Source of the DNA: an uncultured Archangium sp.
Lineage (GTDB): Bacteria > Myxococcota > Myxococcia > Myxococcales > Myxococcaceae
Direction of reading: 5' to 3'
DNA: 61,834 bases
Assembly: GCA_903905455.1 (NCBI GenBank)
Contig: CAIVGN010000058.1
Span: 1 to 61,834 of the forward strand
Shown here: positions 38,377-59,092 of the stretch, piece by piece
Numbering within the stretch: the stretch's first letter is position 1
Layout: each line of letters starts with the position of its first letter
Position numbers and translations under genes: made by a program
The notes under the pieces: generated by a model
What the model was told of the DNA's origin: nothing
Seen by the model: only the letters and a program-made list of their open reading frames with translations
Database searches by the model: none

Positions 38377-38697
38377 ATGACCACGAACACCTCGCCGTCG
38401 ACGCAGAACACGCTCAAGTACATCGCGCATGCGGGCGTGCTCGGCCTGTGGCTCATCGCCGGGGGCGTCTTCACCTTCACCCAGCTCTTCGCCTCGCGGG
38501 GCCTGGGCGCGAGCGTCAACTACTGGCTGTGGTTCATCGGCTTCGCGGGCCTCACCACCCTGGCGGTGCGCTTCATCAAGTCGGCGGTGATGGTGCTCAT
38601 CGTGCACGCGGCCTTCGCGGCGCTGCTCAACCTCATCCCCACCTCGATGCCGTGGGCCATGTTCCGCTCCGGCTACGACCTGCTGATCAACCGCTGA
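38377..38697 (+). CDS. Small membrane protein coupled to the zinc-ribbon/TerB-like gene
   Basis: 106 residues with three hydrophobic segments (VLGLWLIAGGVFTFTQLF, LWFIGFAGLTTLAVRF, VMVLIVHAAFAALLNLI). Start MTTNTSPSTQ is preferred to an in-frame ATG 14 codons upstream. Its TGA overlaps the ATG of the next gene (TGATG), so the two are translated together and may interact in the inner membrane. Family not recognised. Confidence 0.78.
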   Translation: MTTNTSPSTQNTLKYIAHAGVLGLWLIAGGVFTFTQLFASRGLGASVNYWLWFIGFAGLTTLAVRFIKSAVMVLIVHAAFAALLNLIPTSMPWAMFRSGYDLLINR

Positions 38698-40334
38698 TGC
38701 GGGGGTGGTTCGGGCTCTTCTTCGTGGCGCTGCCGCTCCTCTACCAGGGGCTGCTGCGCGTGGGCGTGAACGACCTCGCCGCCGCCACCCTGGCCTTCGG
38801 GCTGCTGGCCGCGGGCCTCGTCTTCGTCGCCTCCCGGGTCATCGCCCACAAGCTGAGCGACCTGCGCGACCACCCGCCCTCCGAGCTGCGCCCCACCTTC
38901 GTGTCGCCAGCACTGGAAGACGTGGGTGCCCGCGCCGAGCTCGCCTTTCGGGTCGACGACCCCGACTTCACCGTGCAGCGCCTGCTGGCCACGGCGACCA
39001 CCATCGCGCAGCGGCTCGCGGCCGGTGACCTCGAGGCGGTGCACCCCTTCGTCTCCGACGGCCTCTTCCAGCGCCTGCGCACGCAGCGAAGGCTCTCCCA
39101 GCTCCCCCTCGAGTTCACCGGCTTCCAGGGCCGCGCGGTGAAGGGCGTGCTGGTCGCCGAGGCCTCGGTGGGCGCGCAGTACCAGCACGCCACCCTGCGC
39201 CTGACCCTGGGCGAGGGCCGCGACGCGCAGACGGTGGGCTTCACCCTGCTGCGACGCCGGGCGGCGAAGACGAAGCACGAGGGCCTGGCCGAGGCGAAGT
39301 GTCCTCACTGTGGCGCGGGCCTCGAGCTGGGCGCGACGCAGCGCTGCCGTTTCTGCGAGGCCATCGTGAACTCCGGCGTGCACGACTGGGTGTTGTGCGC
39401 GCTCACGCCCGGGGCGCACCAGCTCGCGCGCCCCGGCGACGTGCTCGACCCGGAGAACGTGCGGCAGGTGGACCCGGACCTCGCCCCTGAAGAGCTCGTG
39501 GACCGCGCCACCCTCACCTTCTGGCGCTGGGTCGAGGCGCGGAAGGGGGGCGACGAGGGCCGCCTCGCGCGCCTCGCCACGCCCGACTTCCTCGAGCTGC
39601 TGGAGCTGCAGGCCGCACCCGAAGGCGTCGTCTCCAGCGGCGGTGGTGAGCTGCGGGCGCTGCGCAGCGTGCGCGGCTTCGACGAGGCCCACGTGCTGCT
39701 GCGCTGGGCCGACACGCCCGGAGGCGTCACCCGCTCCCACCAGACGGTGTTCAAGCTGCGCCGGCCACACGGGCTGCGCACCACCACGGCGCTGGGGCTC
39801 TCCACGTTCCGCTGCCTCCAGTGCCTCGCCGCGGTCACCGATGCCGAGACGCCGGTGTGCGAGTACTGCGGCGCCTCGCTGCGCGATGCCTGGTGCCTCA
39901 ACGATCTCGAGGCGTTCACCACGTGGTCCGACCAGGCGGTGGCGCTGCGCAAGAAGGTGGGCGGAGACTGGGCCCGCGCGGCCACGCCGGCGCAGCGGGA
40001 GGCCGCCCTGGGGCTGCTGGTCTCGGTGGCCAGGGCCGACGGCGTGCTCAGCGAGGCCGAGGTGGAGCGCCTCGAACTGGTGGCGGCGAAGTGGCAGGTG
40101 CCGCCGGGGCAGCTCGCGGCGGCGCTGCAGGCCCCGGCGTCAGGGACGCCGAAGTTCGCGCGCGCCCTGGCGCTGTCGTTGACGCAGGAGCTGGTAGAGC
40201 TGGCGTTCGTCGACGGGAAGCTCGAGCCGAAGGAACGCAAGCGCCTCGACGCCCTCGCCACCACCCTGGGTACCGAGGCCGAGCTCAGCCGCGCACTCGC
40301 CCAGCAGTTGGCGCAGCGCTTCACGCGGGGGTGA
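38697..40334 (+). CDS. Tim44-like/TerB-like protein with two zinc ribbons
   Basis: 545 residues. N-terminus with two membrane segments (LFFVALPLLYQGLL, LAAATLAFGLLAAGLVFVA). Residues ~85-190 resemble the Tim44/MBA1 family (AQRLAAGDLEAVHPFVSD, FQGRAVKGVLVAEASV). Then a zinc ribbon CPHCGAGLELGATQRCRFC, a second Tim44-like module (~265-375), another ribbon CLQCLAAVTDAETPVCEYCG, and a C-terminal TerB-like helical domain (LGLLVSVARADGVLSEAEVE, AFVDGKLEPKERKRLDAL). Such proteins are predicted to be membrane-associated scaffolds. Coupled to the small membrane gene by TGATG. Confidence 0.85.
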   Translation: MRGWFGLFFVALPLLYQGLLRVGVNDLAAATLAFGLLAAGLVFVASRVIAHKLSDLRDHPPSELRPTFVSPALEDVGARAELAFRVDDPDFTVQRLLATATTIAQRLAAGDLEAVHPFVSDGLFQRLRTQRRLSQLPLEFTGFQGRAVKGVLVAEASVGAQYQHATLRLTLGEGRDAQTVGFTLLRRRAAKTKHEGLAEAKCPHCGAGLELGATQRCRFCEAIVNSGVHDWVLCALTPGAHQLARPGDVLDPENVRQVDPDLAPEELVDRATLTFWRWVEARKGGDEGRLARLATPDFLELLELQAAPEGVVSSGGGELRALRSVRGFDEAHVLLRWADTPGGVTRSHQTVFKLRRPHGLRTTTALGLSTFRCLQCLAAVTDAETPVCEYCGASLRDAWCLNDLEAFTTWSDQAVALRKKVGGDWARAATPAQREAALGLLVSVARADGVLSEAEVERLELVAAKWQVPPGQLAAALQAPASGTPKFARALALSLTQELVELAFVDGKLEPKERKRLDALATTLGTEAELSRALAQQLAQRFTRG

Positions 40335-42604: not shown

Positions 42605-44056
42605 ATGGTCGACCACGCGCGCACCGGGCCCGTCTTTCTGCGCATCGCCCGCGAGGTGATGCACGACATTCGCCGGGGCCGGCTGGTGCCGGGCCAGCGA
42701 TTGCCGGGCAGCCGCACCTGGGCCGCGCAGCTGGGCGTCAACCGCAACACGGTCATCGCCGCGGTGAACGAGCTCGAGGCGCAGGGCTGGGTCACCACCT
42801 CGCCGGCGCGGGGCACCTTCGTCAGCGAGGCCCTGCCCGAGGAGCTCACCGGGCCCACCACCCGGGGCCTCGCGGCGTTGGGGGTCTCGCTCCCGCCCGA
42901 GCCCGAGTTCCTGCAGGCCCGCCCCTTCTCGCTCGACCCGGGCGTGCTGCACTTCTCGGCGGGCACGCCGGACCCGCGGCTGGTGCCGGTGGAGCTCCTC
43001 GCGCGCACCTGGCGCCGGGTGGTGCGCCGCGGCGGGCGGCGGCTGCTGGAGTACGGCGAGCCCGGGGGCCACCCCGCGCTGCGCCGGGCCCTGGCGACGC
43101 TGGTGGCCGAGCGGCGCGGCGTGCCGGCCACGCCGGAGCAGGTGGTGGTGACGCGGGGCAGCCAGATGGCCCTGGATCTCCTCGCCCGCGCCGTGCTGCG
43201 CCCCGGCGAGACGGTGGCCGTCGAGGCGCTGGGCTACGCCCCCGCCTGGGACGCGCTGCGCCTGGCCGGGGCGCGGTTGGTGCCGGTGCCCGTCGACGGT
43301 GATGGGCTCGACGTCGACGCCCTCGAGCGCCTCGCCCGCAAGCGCCGGCTGCGCGCGGTGTACGTCACCCCGCACCACCAGTACCCGACCACGGTGACCA
43401 TGTCCGCCGCGCGTCGCCTCGCGCTGCTCTCGCTGGCGAGGCGCCACGGGCTGTTGATCATCGAGGACGACTACGATCACGAGTTTCACTACGAGGGCCG
43501 GCCGGTGCTCCCCCTGGCGAGCGCCGACGACGCGGGCGTGGTGGCGTCCATCGGCACGCTGTCCAAGGTGCTCGCGCCGGGCCTGCGCCTGGGCTTCGTC
43601 ATCGCCCCCACCCGGCTCGCCGAGCGCCTGGTGCGCCTGCGCGCGGTGATGGACCGCCAGGGCGACCACCCCATGGAGGCCACCGTGGCCGAGCTGCTCG
43701 AGGAAGGGGAGCTGCAGCGCCACGTCCGCAAGATGAGGGGGGTGTACCGGGCGCGGCGGGACCTGCTGGTGGAGCGCCTCGAGGCGAAGCTGGGTGCGGT
43801 GCTGCGCGTGGACGTGCCGCCCGGGGGCATCTCGGTGTGGGCCCGGGTGACGCAGCCCCTCGACCTCGAGGCGTGGCTCGCGGCGGCCCGCGCGCGGGGC
43901 GTGGTGGTGCACCCCGGGGCCCGCTACACCTTCGACGGCCACGAGCCCGGCGCCCTGCGGCTGGTCTTCGCGCGCTTCAGCGAGGCCGAGCTGACGCGCG
44001 CGGTCGAGGTGCTGGCGGCGACGCTCCCCCACGGCCAGCACCGTCGGCTACAGTGA
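42605..44056 (+). CDS. MocR-family transcriptional regulator (GntR HTH plus aminotransferase fold)
   Basis: 483 residues. Residues 1-75 form a GntR winged helix (IAREVMHDIRRGRLVPGQRL, QLGVNRNTVIAAVNELEAQG, SPARGTFVSE). Residues ~110-480 are a class I aminotransferase-like domain with VVVTRGSQMALDLLARAVL, VYVTPHHQYPTTVTMS, IIEDDYDHEFHYEG and the PLP-Lys segment IGTLSKVLAPGLRLGFV (Lys ~322). Such regulators bind PLP and an amino-compound effector. The divergent FMN-GNAT gene is the most likely target, through sites at 42547-42591. Confidence 0.94.
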   Translation: MVDHARTGPVFLRIAREVMHDIRRGRLVPGQRLPGSRTWAAQLGVNRNTVIAAVNELEAQGWVTTSPARGTFVSEALPEELTGPTTRGLAALGVSLPPEPEFLQARPFSLDPGVLHFSAGTPDPRLVPVELLARTWRRVVRRGGRRLLEYGEPGGHPALRRALATLVAERRGVPATPEQVVVTRGSQMALDLLARAVLRPGETVAVEALGYAPAWDALRLAGARLVPVPVDGDGLDVDALERLARKRRLRAVYVTPHHQYPTTVTMSAARRLALLSLARRHGLLIIEDDYDHEFHYEGRPVLPLASADDAGVVASIGTLSKVLAPGLRLGFVIAPTRLAERLVRLRAVMDRQGDHPMEATVAELLEEGELQRHVRKMRGVYRARRDLLVERLEAKLGAVLRVDVPPGGISVWARVTQPLDLEAWLAAARARGVVVHPGARYTFDGHEPGALRLVFARFSEAELTRAVEVLAATLPHGQHRRLQ

Positions 44057-54331: not shown

Positions 54332-55510
54332 ATGAAGACGAAGCGCATCGGCATCCTCACGGGCGGCGGCGACGTTCCGGGCCTCAACTCGGTCATCAAG
54401 AGCGTGGTCTACCGGGGCTGGGAACACGGCGCGGAGACCGTGGGCATCCGCCGCGGCTTCGAGGGCCTCACCCACGTCGACCTCGATGACCCGGCCAGCA
54501 CCGCGAAGTACATCCTCCCCCTGACCCGCGAGAACACGCGCACCATCGATCGCCACGGAGGCACGGTGCTGCACTCGACGCGCGTGGGCCCCGCGCGGGT
54601 CCGCCACCTCCCGGCGCACCTGCACGACAAGCCCCTCGAGGCCACCGAGGGCAAGGGCGGCATCACCTTCGACCTCACCGAGGTGGTGCTCAAGAACCTC
54701 GAGCGCATGGGCATCGACGCGCTGATCTGCATCGGCGGTGACGGCACCCTGAAGTCGGCCGCCCAGCTCAGCAAGCGCGGGGTGCGGGTGATGGGCATCC
54801 CCAAGACGATGGACAACGACGTGCGCTCCACCGAGTACTGCATCGGGTTCTCCACGGCCATCAGCCGCGCCACCGCCGCCATCGATCGCCAGCGCACCAC
54901 CATCGGCTCGCACGAGCGCATCGGCATCTTCCGCATCTTCGGCCGCGACGCCGGCTTCACCGCGCTCTACACCGCGCACGCCACCTCGAACCGCTGCGTC
55001 ATCCCCGAGCACAAGGTCAACCTCGACAAGTTGATCACCCTCTTGCTCGAAGAGAAGCGCGAGAACCCCAGCAACTACGCCCTGGTCATCCTCGCCGAGG
55101 GCGCCACCTGGGACGGCTACGAGGTGCAGGAGTTCGGCCGCGTCGACGCCCTGGGCCGCCGCAAGAAGGCCAGCGTGGCCCAGGTCTTCGCCGACGAGAT
55201 CGCCCACCGCACCAACGAGGAGACCATCGTCTCCGACCTCACCTACGACCTGCGCTCCGGCGACCCCGACTTCATCGACAAGCTCGTCGGCTCGACCTTC
55301 GGCACCATGGCCCTCGACGCGCTCTTCGCCGGCGACTCGGGGAAGATGTCCGCCATCGTCAACGGCTGCTACCAGGTGGTGCCCCTGCCCTCGCCCGAGC
55401 TCGGCGCCCGGCGCGTCGACGTGGCCACCATGTACAACACCGACCGGTATCGGCCCCTGTATGGAAACAAGGTCGGTTTGCCCATCTTCCTGAACCCGGA
55501 ACGGGACTGA
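54332..55510 (+). CDS. pfkA: 6-phosphofructokinase
   Basis: 392 residues. N-terminal ILTGGGDVPGLNSVIKS (phosphate loop), LICIGGDGTLKSA (GGDGT near 136), GIPKTMDNDVRST with catalytic Asp in the TxD, GFSTAISRATAAID and FGRDAGFTALYTA. It phosphorylates fructose 6-phosphate in glycolysis. The GGDG sequence is typical of ATP users and the PKTMDND of a clade that includes PPi users, so the donor is not settled from sequence. It lies 33 bp upstream of the aminotransferase-PEPC fusion on the same strand, suggesting co-expression. Confidence 0.94.
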   Translation: MKTKRIGILTGGGDVPGLNSVIKSVVYRGWEHGAETVGIRRGFEGLTHVDLDDPASTAKYILPLTRENTRTIDRHGGTVLHSTRVGPARVRHLPAHLHDKPLEATEGKGGITFDLTEVVLKNLERMGIDALICIGGDGTLKSAAQLSKRGVRVMGIPKTMDNDVRSTEYCIGFSTAISRATAAIDRQRTTIGSHERIGIFRIFGRDAGFTALYTAHATSNRCVIPEHKVNLDKLITLLLEEKRENPSNYALVILAEGATWDGYEVQEFGRVDALGRRKKASVAQVFADEIAHRTNEETIVSDLTYDLRSGDPDFIDKLVGSTFGTMALDALFAGDSGKMSAIVNGCYQVVPLPSPELGARRVDVATMYNTDRYRPLYGNKVGLPIFLNPERD

Positions 55511-55543: not shown

Positions 55544-58500
55544 ATGATGCGCCGCGCCATGAGCTCATTGAAGATGGAGTTGTCGAAGAAGGCCCTCACC
55601 ACCCCTGAACCGCAAGTCCGCGCCTTTGCGCGCCGCGTGCAGCAGGAGGGCGCCCTCGACCTGACGCAGGGCGACTACAAGAACTCCGACTTCGCGCCGC
55701 ACCCCGAAGTCGTCCGCGCGGCGCAGCGCATCACGCGCAACACGGTGCACAGCTACGGCGCCGCCGTGGGCCGCATGGACGTGCGCGCCGAGGTCGCCGA
55801 GTTCTCGAACCGCGACGGCCAGCGCGACTACCCGGGCACCGAGGTCCGCTACTTCCCCGACGAGGTCATCTTCACGTCGGGCACCCGCGCCGGCCTGGTG
55901 ATGGTGATGGAGGTGCTCGGCGCCGACGGCTCGGGCATCGTGGTGATGCGCCCCTCGTGGGAATACGACTGGTTCATCGAGCGCGCGGGCAAGAAGCTCG
56001 TGGAGCTCCAGACCCGCTCGCCCGACTTCCTGCCGGACCCCGCCGAGCTCGACGCGCTGCTCGCCAAGGGCGGCATCTCCAGCGTCATCATCAACAACCC
56101 GCACAACCCCACCGGCCGCGTCTACCCGCGCAAGCTGGTCGAGGAGCTCGTCGCCGTCTGCGTGAAGCACAAGGCCTACGTGCTCTACGACTCGGTGTAC
56201 CAGCGCCTCGACTACGTCGACGCCTTCGTCAACCCGGCCTACGCCAACCCCGAGTGGCGCCACTGGGTGGTGAACTTCTCGGGCCTCTCGAAGATGGACA
56301 TGTTCGGAGCCTCCACCGGCGCGCGCGCCTGCTGGGTGGTGATGAGCGACGAGATCCGCAGCAACGGCGTGCGCGCCCGAGAGGTCATCGCCAACCTCTC
56401 GGCGTGGCTCATGGCCAACCCCTCGACGCTGGCCCAGGACTGGGCCCTGGCCGCGCTGCAGAGCCCGCTGGCCGGCCTGCGCCGCCCCTCGCCGTACATG
56501 CGCGAGCGCCGCGACTTCATGGCCATGGCCGCCGACAAGTTGAAGCCCCTGGGCGTGGAGCGCACCGCCTTCGAAGGCACCTTCTATTCGCCCCTCGCCT
56601 TCCCCGGCCTCGTGGGTGAGCGCTTCGAGCGCCTGCGCCACGGCGTGCGCGAGTCGGCGGTGGTGAAGAACGGCGAAGACGCCTTCGACTTCCTGCTCAC
56701 CGGCGGGGTGGGCGGCATTCCCTTCACCGCGTTCGCCGGCGTGGACCGCGATCGCTTCGGCACCTGGCAGCGCCTGTCCTACGGCTCGAAGGATGTGAAG
56801 GAGCTGGTGGTCTTCATGCAGCGCATCCAGGACCGCATCGAGCGCCAGGGCCGCCTCGGCTCGAGCGCGCCTGCGGTCAAGCCCACGCCCGCGGGCCTGG
56901 TGTGGGGCGCGTCGTGCACCACCGCCGGCTACGACGCCCTCGACGGCCTCGACAAGGCGGCCTTCGACACCGCGCGCGCCGCATGGCTCCAGGGCGCGAC
57001 CCGCGAGACCCTGCGGCTGACGGGCACCAAGCACCCCGACTCCACCACGCACCGCGCCGAACAGTTGAAGCGCGCCGAAGCGGCGGCGGGCACCGGCGAG
57101 GGCTCGGCCAAGCGCGCGCTCTCGTACCTCGAGTGGAACCCGCTGGTGGAGGCGCGCCAGGAGTTCGACGAGACGCTGCAGGACCTGCTGGGGCCGATGA
57201 ACGAGGTGCTGCTCGACTTCGAGGGCCGCAACATCAGCCCCGAGTGGCTGGAGGTGCCGGAGAAGGTGGTGCTCGCGCTCTTGCGCCACGGCGTGGTGCC
57301 GGGTGACGAGCGGCACCTGCTGTTCCGCGTGCCCAACCCCTTCCTCGAGCAGGACGAGGAGAAGATCTCCAAGCTGCTGGCCATGGTGGCGCGCACCAAC
57401 CTGCTCTTCCACCTCGCCGCCCAGAAGCTGGGCTTCACCCCGGTGCAGAACGCGATCAACGAGGTCTCGGTGCCGCAGATCAACGCGCGGGCCGACGTGG
57501 GCGCGCTGGTGAAGATCGGCACCCTGTACCTCGCGGCCATCGAAGGCCTGTTCGAAGGCGAGCGCCGCGACGACTTCCTCTGCGCGCGCATCCCCGAGAG
57601 CAAGCGCGCCGAACTCAAGGCGAAGGTGGGCAAGGTGCGGCTCATGCCGCTGGTGGAGAACGTGGGCGCGCTGTCGCACCTGCCGGACCTGCTGGAGACC
57701 TTCTACGTGGCCCTGGAGCGCAACCGCGGCTTCCCCGGGCTGCCCACGGCCGAGAGCTTCGTCACCCGCTTCGACGGCACCGACCCGCGCGTGCGCGTGT
57801 TCGTGGCCATGAGCGACACCGCCGAGCAGAGCGGGAAGATCGCCACCGACTCGGCCTACACCCTGACCATCGCCGGCCGGGAAGACGCCGAGCGCCGGCT
57901 GGCCGAGCACGCCAAGAAGCACGGCGGCCTGGCCCCCAGGGTGTCCTTCCTCATCGGGGCGGGGCGCGCGGGCTTCCGCGGCGGCTTCGACCCTGAGCAC
58001 GAAGGCATCATCACGCAGTTCAGCCGCGCCGACGGCGTCACCATGCAGGGCATTCGGGCCGACGCGCCGGAAGAGACCCGGCGGCTGGCCGCGCGCTTCC
58101 GCGAGGTCGTCGCGCGCAACGCGGCGCCGCTGACCGTCAACCAGGCCGACCACGAGATCCTCCTCGACGTGCTCGACGCGGGCGTGAAGGCCCACACCGA
58201 GACCCTGCTGCGCATCGCGCCCATCATCTCGCCCTTCGGCGGGCTGGTGCCGCAGACGCGCGTGCGCATTCGCGCCACCGGTTCGGTGAACTACGGCCGG
58301 TCCATCCCCGAGTACCCCGAAGAGTGGGGAGGGGGCACCCGGCTGCCGGACAACCGCGACCTCCGCGACGCCTGGCCCGAGGGCGTCTCGTTGCCCCGCG
58401 CCATCGTCTACAACCTCGGCTGCACCACGCTGGGGTTGCCGGCCCTGACCTCCGACCTCGCGGCCCTCGACAAGCGCGCGGCGGTGCTGCTGGAGCGGGT

Positions 58501-59092
58501 GACCCCGGGCTACCGGGAGATCCAGGCGCGCGAGCTGCCGTACTTCGTCAAGCAGGCGGTGGCCCTGGTGTTCGGCAAGCGCTTCGCCGAGACCACCGAG
58601 AAGCACGTGCTCCGGGCGGCCGCTTCGCTGTGGGCCGACGTCAAGGTGCGTGAAGAGCTCGTGGCCCCCACCTGCCTCTTCGCGATGATGTACCTGCGCT
58701 ACGTCGCCGAAGACTCCGAGAGCTGGGACGAGACCAAGGAGCACGAGAGCCCGGCGACCCGCGAGAGCGAGCTGATTCGCGACACCGCGAGCGGCGCGTT
58801 CTCGGCCCTGTGCGCCGAGAAGCCCGGCGAGCGCTGGAGCGTGCTGCAGTCGCTCCTCGACGCCGAGGACGCCAACCGGCTGCTGCTCGCCCGCGAGCTG
58901 ACCATCGAAGAGAAGCGCGAGTTCGTCGACCTCGCCATCGATGGCTGGTTGCGCACCCTGGACGGTGCGTTGTCGCGGTCGCTGCGCGCCGACTGGTCGC
59001 GCCTGCGGGAGCTGGACAAGTCGGAGCTCACGCTGGAAGCCATTCGCCAGCTGATTGCCAACGAGCAACTGCGTGGGAGCCGCGGCGCCTGA
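55544..59092 (+). CDS. Fusion of class I aminotransferase and archaeal-type PEP carboxylase-like domain
   Basis: 1,182 residues. Residues ~15-430 are a class I/II PLP aminotransferase: NNPHNPTGRVYPRKLVEEL (~184), VLYDSVYQRLD and VNFSGLSKMDMFGASTGARA with the PLP-Lys at ~250. After a Pro/Ala-rich linker, residues ~490-1150 align in order with archaeal-type PEPC: GTKHPDSTTHRA (family TQHPDN), MNEVLLDFEGRNISPEW, LLRHGVVPGDERH, VRLMPLVENVGALSHLPDLL, RVFVAMSDTAEQSGK, GAGRAGFRGGFDPE (family GSLPFRGH) and PRAIVYNLGCTTLGLP. If both halves work, PEP would be carboxylated to oxaloacetate and transaminated to aspartate in one protein. ATG at 55544 has a GGGGCG ribosome site; the ATG at 55559 is an alternative. 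Confidence 0.88.
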   Translation: MMRRAMSSLKMELSKKALTTPEPQVRAFARRVQQEGALDLTQGDYKNSDFAPHPEVVRAAQRITRNTVHSYGAAVGRMDVRAEVAEFSNRDGQRDYPGTEVRYFPDEVIFTSGTRAGLVMVMEVLGADGSGIVVMRPSWEYDWFIERAGKKLVELQTRSPDFLPDPAELDALLAKGGISSVIINNPHNPTGRVYPRKLVEELVAVCVKHKAYVLYDSVYQRLDYVDAFVNPAYANPEWRHWVVNFSGLSKMDMFGASTGARACWVVMSDEIRSNGVRAREVIANLSAWLMANPSTLAQDWALAALQSPLAGLRRPSPYMRERRDFMAMAADKLKPLGVERTAFEGTFYSPLAFPGLVGERFERLRHGVRESAVVKNGEDAFDFLLTGGVGGIPFTAFAGVDRDRFGTWQRLSYGSKDVKELVVFMQRIQDRIERQGRLGSSAPAVKPTPAGLVWGASCTTAGYDALDGLDKAAFDTARAAWLQGATRETLRLTGTKHPDSTTHRAEQLKRAEAAAGTGEGSAKRALSYLEWNPLVEARQEFDETLQDLLGPMNEVLLDFEGRNISPEWLEVPEKVVLALLRHGVVPGDERHLLFRVPNPFLEQDEEKISKLLAMVARTNLLFHLAAQKLGFTPVQNAINEVSVPQINARADVGALVKIGTLYLAAIEGLFEGERRDDFLCARIPESKRAELKAKVGKVRLMPLVENVGALSHLPDLLETFYVALERNRGFPGLPTAESFVTRFDGTDPRVRVFVAMSDTAEQSGKIATDSAYTLTIAGREDAERRLAEHAKKHGGLAPRVSFLIGAGRAGFRGGFDPEHEGIITQFSRADGVTMQGIRADAPEETRRLAARFREVVARNAAPLTVNQADHEILLDVLDAGVKAHTETLLRIAPIISPFGGLVPQTRVRIRATGSVNYGRSIPEYPEEWGGGTRLPDNRDLRDAWPEGVSLPRAIVYNLGCTTLGLPALTSDLAALDKRAAVLLERVTPGYREIQARELPYFVKQAVALVFGKRFAETTEKHVLRAAASLWADVKVREELVAPTCLFAMMYLRYVAEDSESWDETKEHESPATRESELIRDTASGAFSALCAEKPGERWSVLQSLLDAEDANRLLLARELTIEEKREFVDLAIDGWLRTLDGALSRSLRADWSRLRELDKSELTLEAIRQLIANEQLRGSRGA

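Follow-up and report, generated by a model that had tools for sequence, protein, structure and literature searches.

Locus and reading frame

The window (the whole stretch of DNA analysed, 61,834 nucleotides) carries a single gene in which a class I aminotransferase is joined to an archaeal-type PEP carboxylase (aPEPC), lying downstream of a phosphofructokinase gene. The principal features are as follows:

54332..55510, + strand: 6-phosphofructokinase (PF00365, E 1.8e-67), 33 bp upstream of the fusion gene
55544..59092, + strand: whole fusion gene, 1,182 aa, from an ATG start to a stop at 59090-59092
55583..56854, + strand: class I PLP aminotransferase half, residues ~14-437 (PF00155, E 8.3e-30; fold match Z 17-20)
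56855..57001, + strand: junction, residues ~438-486 (44-73% identity to the window, length nearly constant)
57002..59089, + strand: aPEPC half, residues ~487-1182 (PF14010, structural model and match to 3odm_A)

The forward-strand frame at 55544-59092 runs through 1,182 codons with no internal stop. A Pfam hmmscan of the fusion protein placed an Aminotran_1_2 match at residues 38-333 (E 8.3e-30, above the gathering cut-off) and a PEPcase_2 match (PF14010) at residues 534-1016 (E 2.2e-33; 116 bits, gathering cut-off 25). The ORF and Pfam results confirm the location and both domains given in an earlier, sequence-only reading of this DNA, which had described one unbroken 1,182-residue frame with an aminotransferase followed by an archaeal-type PEPC-like domain.

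Comparison of the window gene with 21 full-length relatives showed far less divergence at codon positions 1 and 2 than at position 3 (against relative L008, 0.123, 0.111 and 0.298 for positions 1, 2 and 3, respectively). An antisense open frame of 1,167 aa lies opposite the fusion gene (55565-59068, − strand) and is to be expected, because third-position GC in the sense frame is very high (0.96). Codon-position divergence and homology together exclude both a chance ORF and the antisense frame as a true gene.

Aminotransferase half

By its PF00155 match and its fold-type I residues (Lys, Asp, Asn, Tyr and two Arg), the N-terminal half is a class I aminotransferase. Its closest solved relatives are the Thermus aspartate aminotransferases (AspATs; E 3.6e-22). 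Across 22 sequences, Y71, W139, N188, D216, Y219, K250, R261 and R410 are invariant. Two positions bear on cofactor and substrate:

55886..55888, + strand: R115, invariant; lies opposite the VGGKQAL lysine of Thermus AspAT, which is replaced by Ser in the mutant entry 1b5o
56291..56293, + strand: K250, predicted PLP Schiff-base lysine (SGLSKMDMFGASTGAR), invariant in 22 sequences; corresponds to the lysine of NGAAK in Thermus AspAT

The VGGKQAL lysine, Lys109 in pig numbering, is the residue that binds aspartate and glutamate by their side-chain carboxylate, and the position of R115 favours a dicarboxylate as the probable substrate of this half. NCBIfam matches were scattered over alanine aminotransferase, archaeal aspartate aminotransferase and GntC, none of them near its cut-off; against the archaeal aspartate aminotransferase equivalog the fusion scored 88.9 bits, below the cut-off of 550. 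With every aminotransferase equivalog short of its cut-off, sequence does not settle the amino-acid substrate. In an AlphaFold model of the whole protein, built with 22 close sequences, the N-terminal half was poor (pLDDT mostly 30-70).

PEP carboxylase half

An AlphaFold model of residues 478-1182 reached a pLDDT of 87.2 and a pTM of 0.88. It superposed on chain A of 3odm, the Clostridium perfringens enzyme and the sole solved aPEPC found, with a Z-score of 34.3 and an rmsd of 2.6 Å over 491 of 525 residues. Alignments with plant PEPCs (Z 18-21) and with the E. coli enzyme (1jqn, Z 16.8) began at the catalytic-His loop and continued to the end of the chain, and other PEP/pyruvate TIM barrels (Z about 16) matched in the barrel only. 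The comparison returned a complete aPEPC fold for this half (3odm_A Z 34.3; model pLDDT 87). The 1jqn alignment starts with model residue 9 on chain residue 127, which would put H497 (model residue 20) on His138 if the intervening stretch is ungapped.

The PEPC half begins near residue 487 rather than at the profile edge (534), because TGTKHPDS (493-500) corresponds to the N-terminal MSTQHPDN motif of aPEPCs; stand-alone aPEPCs from Acidobacteriota and Chloroflexota (L035, L036, L069-L072 and L075) start with M(S/L)TQHPD. One of these, the Chloroflexota protein L075, is of the Clostridium-like kind (368 bits to PF14010) and matches the window protein over a longer stretch (442 aa, at 25% identity) than do the other stand-alone forms compared.

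Residues were compared between 18 fusions and the same seven stand-alone aPEPCs. Overall identity between the fusion C-terminal half and the stand-alone forms is about 25%; 47 of the 92 columns invariant across the seven are also invariant across the 18 fusions. H497, E560, R595, E705, D758, R812, D840, R906, R908, Y917, R919 and R952 are invariant in both sets. The features of this half are:

57032..57034, + strand: H497 in TKHPD, counterpart of the catalytic His, invariant (E. coli His138 by alignment register)
57656..57658, + strand: E705 (PLVEN), predicted metal ligand, invariant
57815..57817, + strand: D758 (AMSDTA), predicted metal ligand, invariant
57977..57979, + strand: R812 (GFRGG), predicted active-site Arg, invariant
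58043..58063, + strand: MQGIRAD (834-840), QSALRYD counterpart shortened by one residue relative to stand-alone aPEPCs; Q835 and D840 invariant
58397..58399, + strand: R952 (LPRAI), predicted PEP-binding Arg, invariant
58706..58780, + strand: fusion-specific highly conserved stretch, residues 1055-1079 (AEDSESWDETKEHESPATRESELIR), near-invariant among fusions

The conserved residues presumably play the catalytic roles that we assign to them through alignment and general knowledge of the E. coli enzyme. In the PEPC mechanism, a single Glu and a single Asp hold Mg, and carboxyphosphate is deprotonated by a His on a loop (PMC10176493).

The sequence-only reading had reported no QSALRYD-like stretch, had taken RAGFRGG in place of SLPFRGH as a departure from the family, and had wondered whether this half had changed its chemistry or become regulatory. 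The stretch is in fact present as MQGIRAD. Stand-alone aPEPCs carry Asn instead of His at the end of the other motif (APFRGN), so the absence of the SLPFRGH His is uninformative. With the catalytic residues retained and invariant, a changed chemistry or a regulatory role becomes less likely. A loss of PEPC motifs is excluded by the alignment with stand-alone aPEPCs. The test named for the two-enzyme idea, a search for an archaeal-type PEPC match and for the His, Arg and metal residues, found the match present and the residues kept, and the idea survived.

Next to the conserved motifs the fusions differ by Q496K, T593L, M645Q, P810G and Y839A, and they lack one residue of the QSA loop. Insertions at about 504-526, at 729-743 and within 1038-1169 add roughly 160 residues. 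For residues 1055-1079, no counterpart was found among the stand-alone aPEPCs aligned; W1061-D1062, K1065 and H1067-E1068-S1069, near the 1038-1169 insertion region, are invariant in fusions and absent from the stand-alone forms.

Against TIGR02751, the NCBI equivalog for archaeal-type PEPC, the fusion scored 103.6 bits, below the cut-off of 146.05; the C-terminal half is homologous to aPEPC and aPEPC-like, though under the equivalog cut-off. Both halves are certain at family level and their exact reactions are left unnamed, since the Pfam profiles pass and the NCBIfam equivalogs fall short. That the fusion protein combines two enzymes is well supported by profile, alignment and fold.

Junction, distribution and descent

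The junction is less conserved than the flanking halves, yet it aligns with few gaps across 22 sequences. Its earlier description as a Pro/Ala linker suits residues ~438-450, which are Pro/Ala-rich, and does not suit the remainder, which continues to 486 and is partly predicted to be helical.

A survey across genomes, another of the proposed checks, recovered full-length fusions in five phyla, sparsely distributed. A scan of genome contigs yielded 27 loci, most spanning residues ~13-1182. The full-length fusions are 67-82% identical to the window protein from end to end and occur in Myxococcota, Acidobacteriota, Pseudomonadota, Chloroflexota and Riflebacteria; record titles name Acidobacteria, Thermoanaerobaculia, Vicinamibacterales, Steroidobacteraceae, Lysobacterales, Chloroflexi, Riflebacteria, Deltaproteobacteria, Bradymonadales and Myxococcales. 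An alignment of 22 fusion sequences has 1,208 columns and few gaps, junction included. One gene encodes both folds, with the catalytic residue sets of both halves and the linkage between them conserved.

The fusion is rare, occurring in <2% of surveyed genomes: 3/195 in the window's phylum, 4/297 in Acidobacteriota (one split across two contigs), 1/296 in the order of one gammaproteobacterial host and 1/400 in Chloroflexota. Every named fusion record found is a metagenome assembly; this would account for the fusion having been overlooked so far. In two Chloroflexi MAG records, L028 (G213) and L025, the fusion gene is broken over two frames, through either a frameshift from assembly error or decay.

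In the tree, the five Pseudomonadota fusions form one group nested within the acidobacterial copies with strong (starred) support, which suggests horizontal transfer, with metagenomic bins and unsampled paralogues as caveats. Identity of the fusions to the window protein is flat at 69-74%, against 51-71% for the PEPCK core in the same genomes (the more distant ones being compared). This flat identity and the nesting of the Pseudomonadota copies would fit horizontal transfer, short of proof.

Gene neighbourhood and host carboxylases

The phosphofructokinase gene 33 bp upstream had been read as support for the proposed function. That argument falls away: no phosphofructokinase was found beside any relative with flanking sequence, and no neighbouring gene recurred beside the fusion across lineages. 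An operon with phosphofructokinase is excluded, that gene being local to the window. Elsewhere in the window, 42605-44056 (+ strand) encodes a GntR-type DNA-binding domain followed by an aminotransferase-like domain, an ordinary MocR-type regulator, and 38448-40334 (+ strand) encodes a 628-aa protein with a TerB-like match at its C-terminus.

Carboxylases were surveyed in 24 distinct fusion genomes using PF00311 (PEPC) and PF02436 (pyruvate carboxylase). Fifteen of the 24 had neither, an absence that rests on draft genomes, which may hide genes; the other nine also have an ordinary PF00311 PEPC, and PEPCK of one type or other is present in most. Both carboxylases are missing as well from 64 of the 195 genomes in the window's phylum, so their absence from 15/24 fusion genomes is suggestive only. 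The window's genome (97.8% complete) gave no PF00311 PEPC, the fusion locus included, and no PF02436 pyruvate carboxylase; it has a single PEPCK, of the GTP type, and 14 further class I/II aminotransferase matches. That the fusion is the sole anaplerotic enzyme everywhere is excluded by the nine genomes with a PF00311 PEPC and by PEPCK in most.

Proposed function and alternatives

The fusion is likely to be a bifunctional PEPC-aspartate aminotransferase that takes PEP and bicarbonate through oxaloacetate to aspartate. The C-terminal half would convert PEP and bicarbonate into oxaloacetate and phosphate by the ordinary PEPC mechanism, with Mg2+ on E705 and D758, the Arg set holding phosphate and carboxylate, and H497 deprotonating carboxyphosphate. 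The N-terminal half would then turn oxaloacetate into aspartate by transamination, most likely with glutamate as donor. The activity of each half, the use of aspartate and glutamate as substrates and the coupling of the two steps are what we infer here. In hosts without another PEPC or pyruvate carboxylase, the fusion would be the main route for refilling the TCA cycle and supplying the aspartate family. A review describes aspartate as a competitive inhibitor of an aPEPC, which makes product feedback on the carboxylase half plausible (PMC8100219).

Channelling of oxaloacetate between the halves is possible. A more ambitious version, which we regard as doubtful, is a single-chain ‘aspartate synthase’ that would pass oxaloacetate directly from the PEPC site to the transaminase site, provide its hosts with their main anaplerotic carboxylase and have spread between phyla as one cassette; here residues 1055-1079 may help to couple the sites.

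Other explanations of the joined protein have to be weighed. The C-terminal half might be a true PEPC and its partner act on another amino acid (alanine, aromatic or enduracididine-like), with coupling through regulation or the PEP/pyruvate pool rather than by hand-over of oxaloacetate. The scattered NCBIfam matches, none near cut-off, and a three-residue insertion between K250 and R261 that is unlike Thermus AspAT speak for such a substrate, but the best solved relatives are aspartate aminotransferases, the basic R115 stands where Thermus AspAT has Lys, and oxaloacetate is both the product of PEPC and a substrate of aspartate aminotransferase; we judge this arrangement unlikely. Less probable again is drift of the PEPC half to a new chemistry, or its conversion into a ligand-sensing regulator of the aminotransferase. 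Identity of about 25% to stand-alone aPEPCs, the roughly 160 inserted residues, the conserved extra stretch at 1055-1079 and the motif-adjacent Q496K, P810G and Y839A could be read in this way, but every fusion has the invariant active-site Arg, His, Asp and Glu, and a regulator would not be expected to retain metal ligands, base and the whole Arg set over five phyla.

Rarity of the fusion is all that speaks for a joining artefact, in which two adjacent genes were merged by a lost stop or by assembly in this genome alone. We give this virtually no weight: the same join, at near-constant length, recurs in >20 independent assemblies, which refutes it. A bifunctional PEPC-aspartate aminotransferase remains our preferred reading.

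Comparison with known enzymes

With aPEPCs (PF14010/TIGR02751; Clostridium perfringens, 3odm) the fusion shares the fold over 491/525 residues, the N-terminal HPD motif, the metal Glu and Asp, the Arg set and the chain end. Unlike them, it has an N-terminal aminotransferase, a C-terminal half of about 695 residues (against about 490-540), insertions (about 504-526, 729-743 and within 1038-1169), about 20-25% identity and a score below the TIGR02751 cut-off. The class I AspAT of Thermus thermophilus (1bjw/1bkg) is alike in domain order, cofactor residues, NPxNPTG and a basic residue at the VGGKQAL position, whereas the fusion is joined to PEPC, has a substrate that is predicted, and carries three extra residues between the PLP lysine and the phosphate-binding Arg. 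Bacterial and plant PEPCs (PF00311; E. coli 1jqn, maize, Arabidopsis) share the overall fold, starting at the catalytic-His loop and running to the C-terminus (Z 17-21), but no PF00311 match was found in the fusion by hmmscan of the protein or by a search of the window's genome, and it lacks roughly 130-160 residues before the catalytic His.

The same review describes a malic enzyme fused to a phosphotransacetylase-like domain that is regulatory and has no phosphotransacetylase activity (PMC8100219). There too an enzyme of the PEP-pyruvate-oxaloacetate node and a second metabolic domain share one chain, but both halves of the PEPC fusion keep their catalytic residues. The PEPC passages found in that review make no mention of an aminotransferase fusion (PMC8100219), and no published description of one was found in the open literature searched, most subscription papers lying outside it. 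The separate parts are of known kinds; the joined enzyme appears new relative to the literature searched, an earlier description being possible, and public protein databases may already list its domain architecture by automatic annotation.

PEPC is one of the main points at which inorganic carbon enters central metabolism, and the oxaloacetate that it makes is unstable, with several enzymes competing for it. A natural fusion of PEPC to the next enzyme on the way to aspartate would offer a clear case on which to test substrate channelling and, in a single gene, a ready tool for aspartate-family production. The fusion also hints at how some bacteria without another recognised PEPC or pyruvate carboxylase may refill the TCA cycle.
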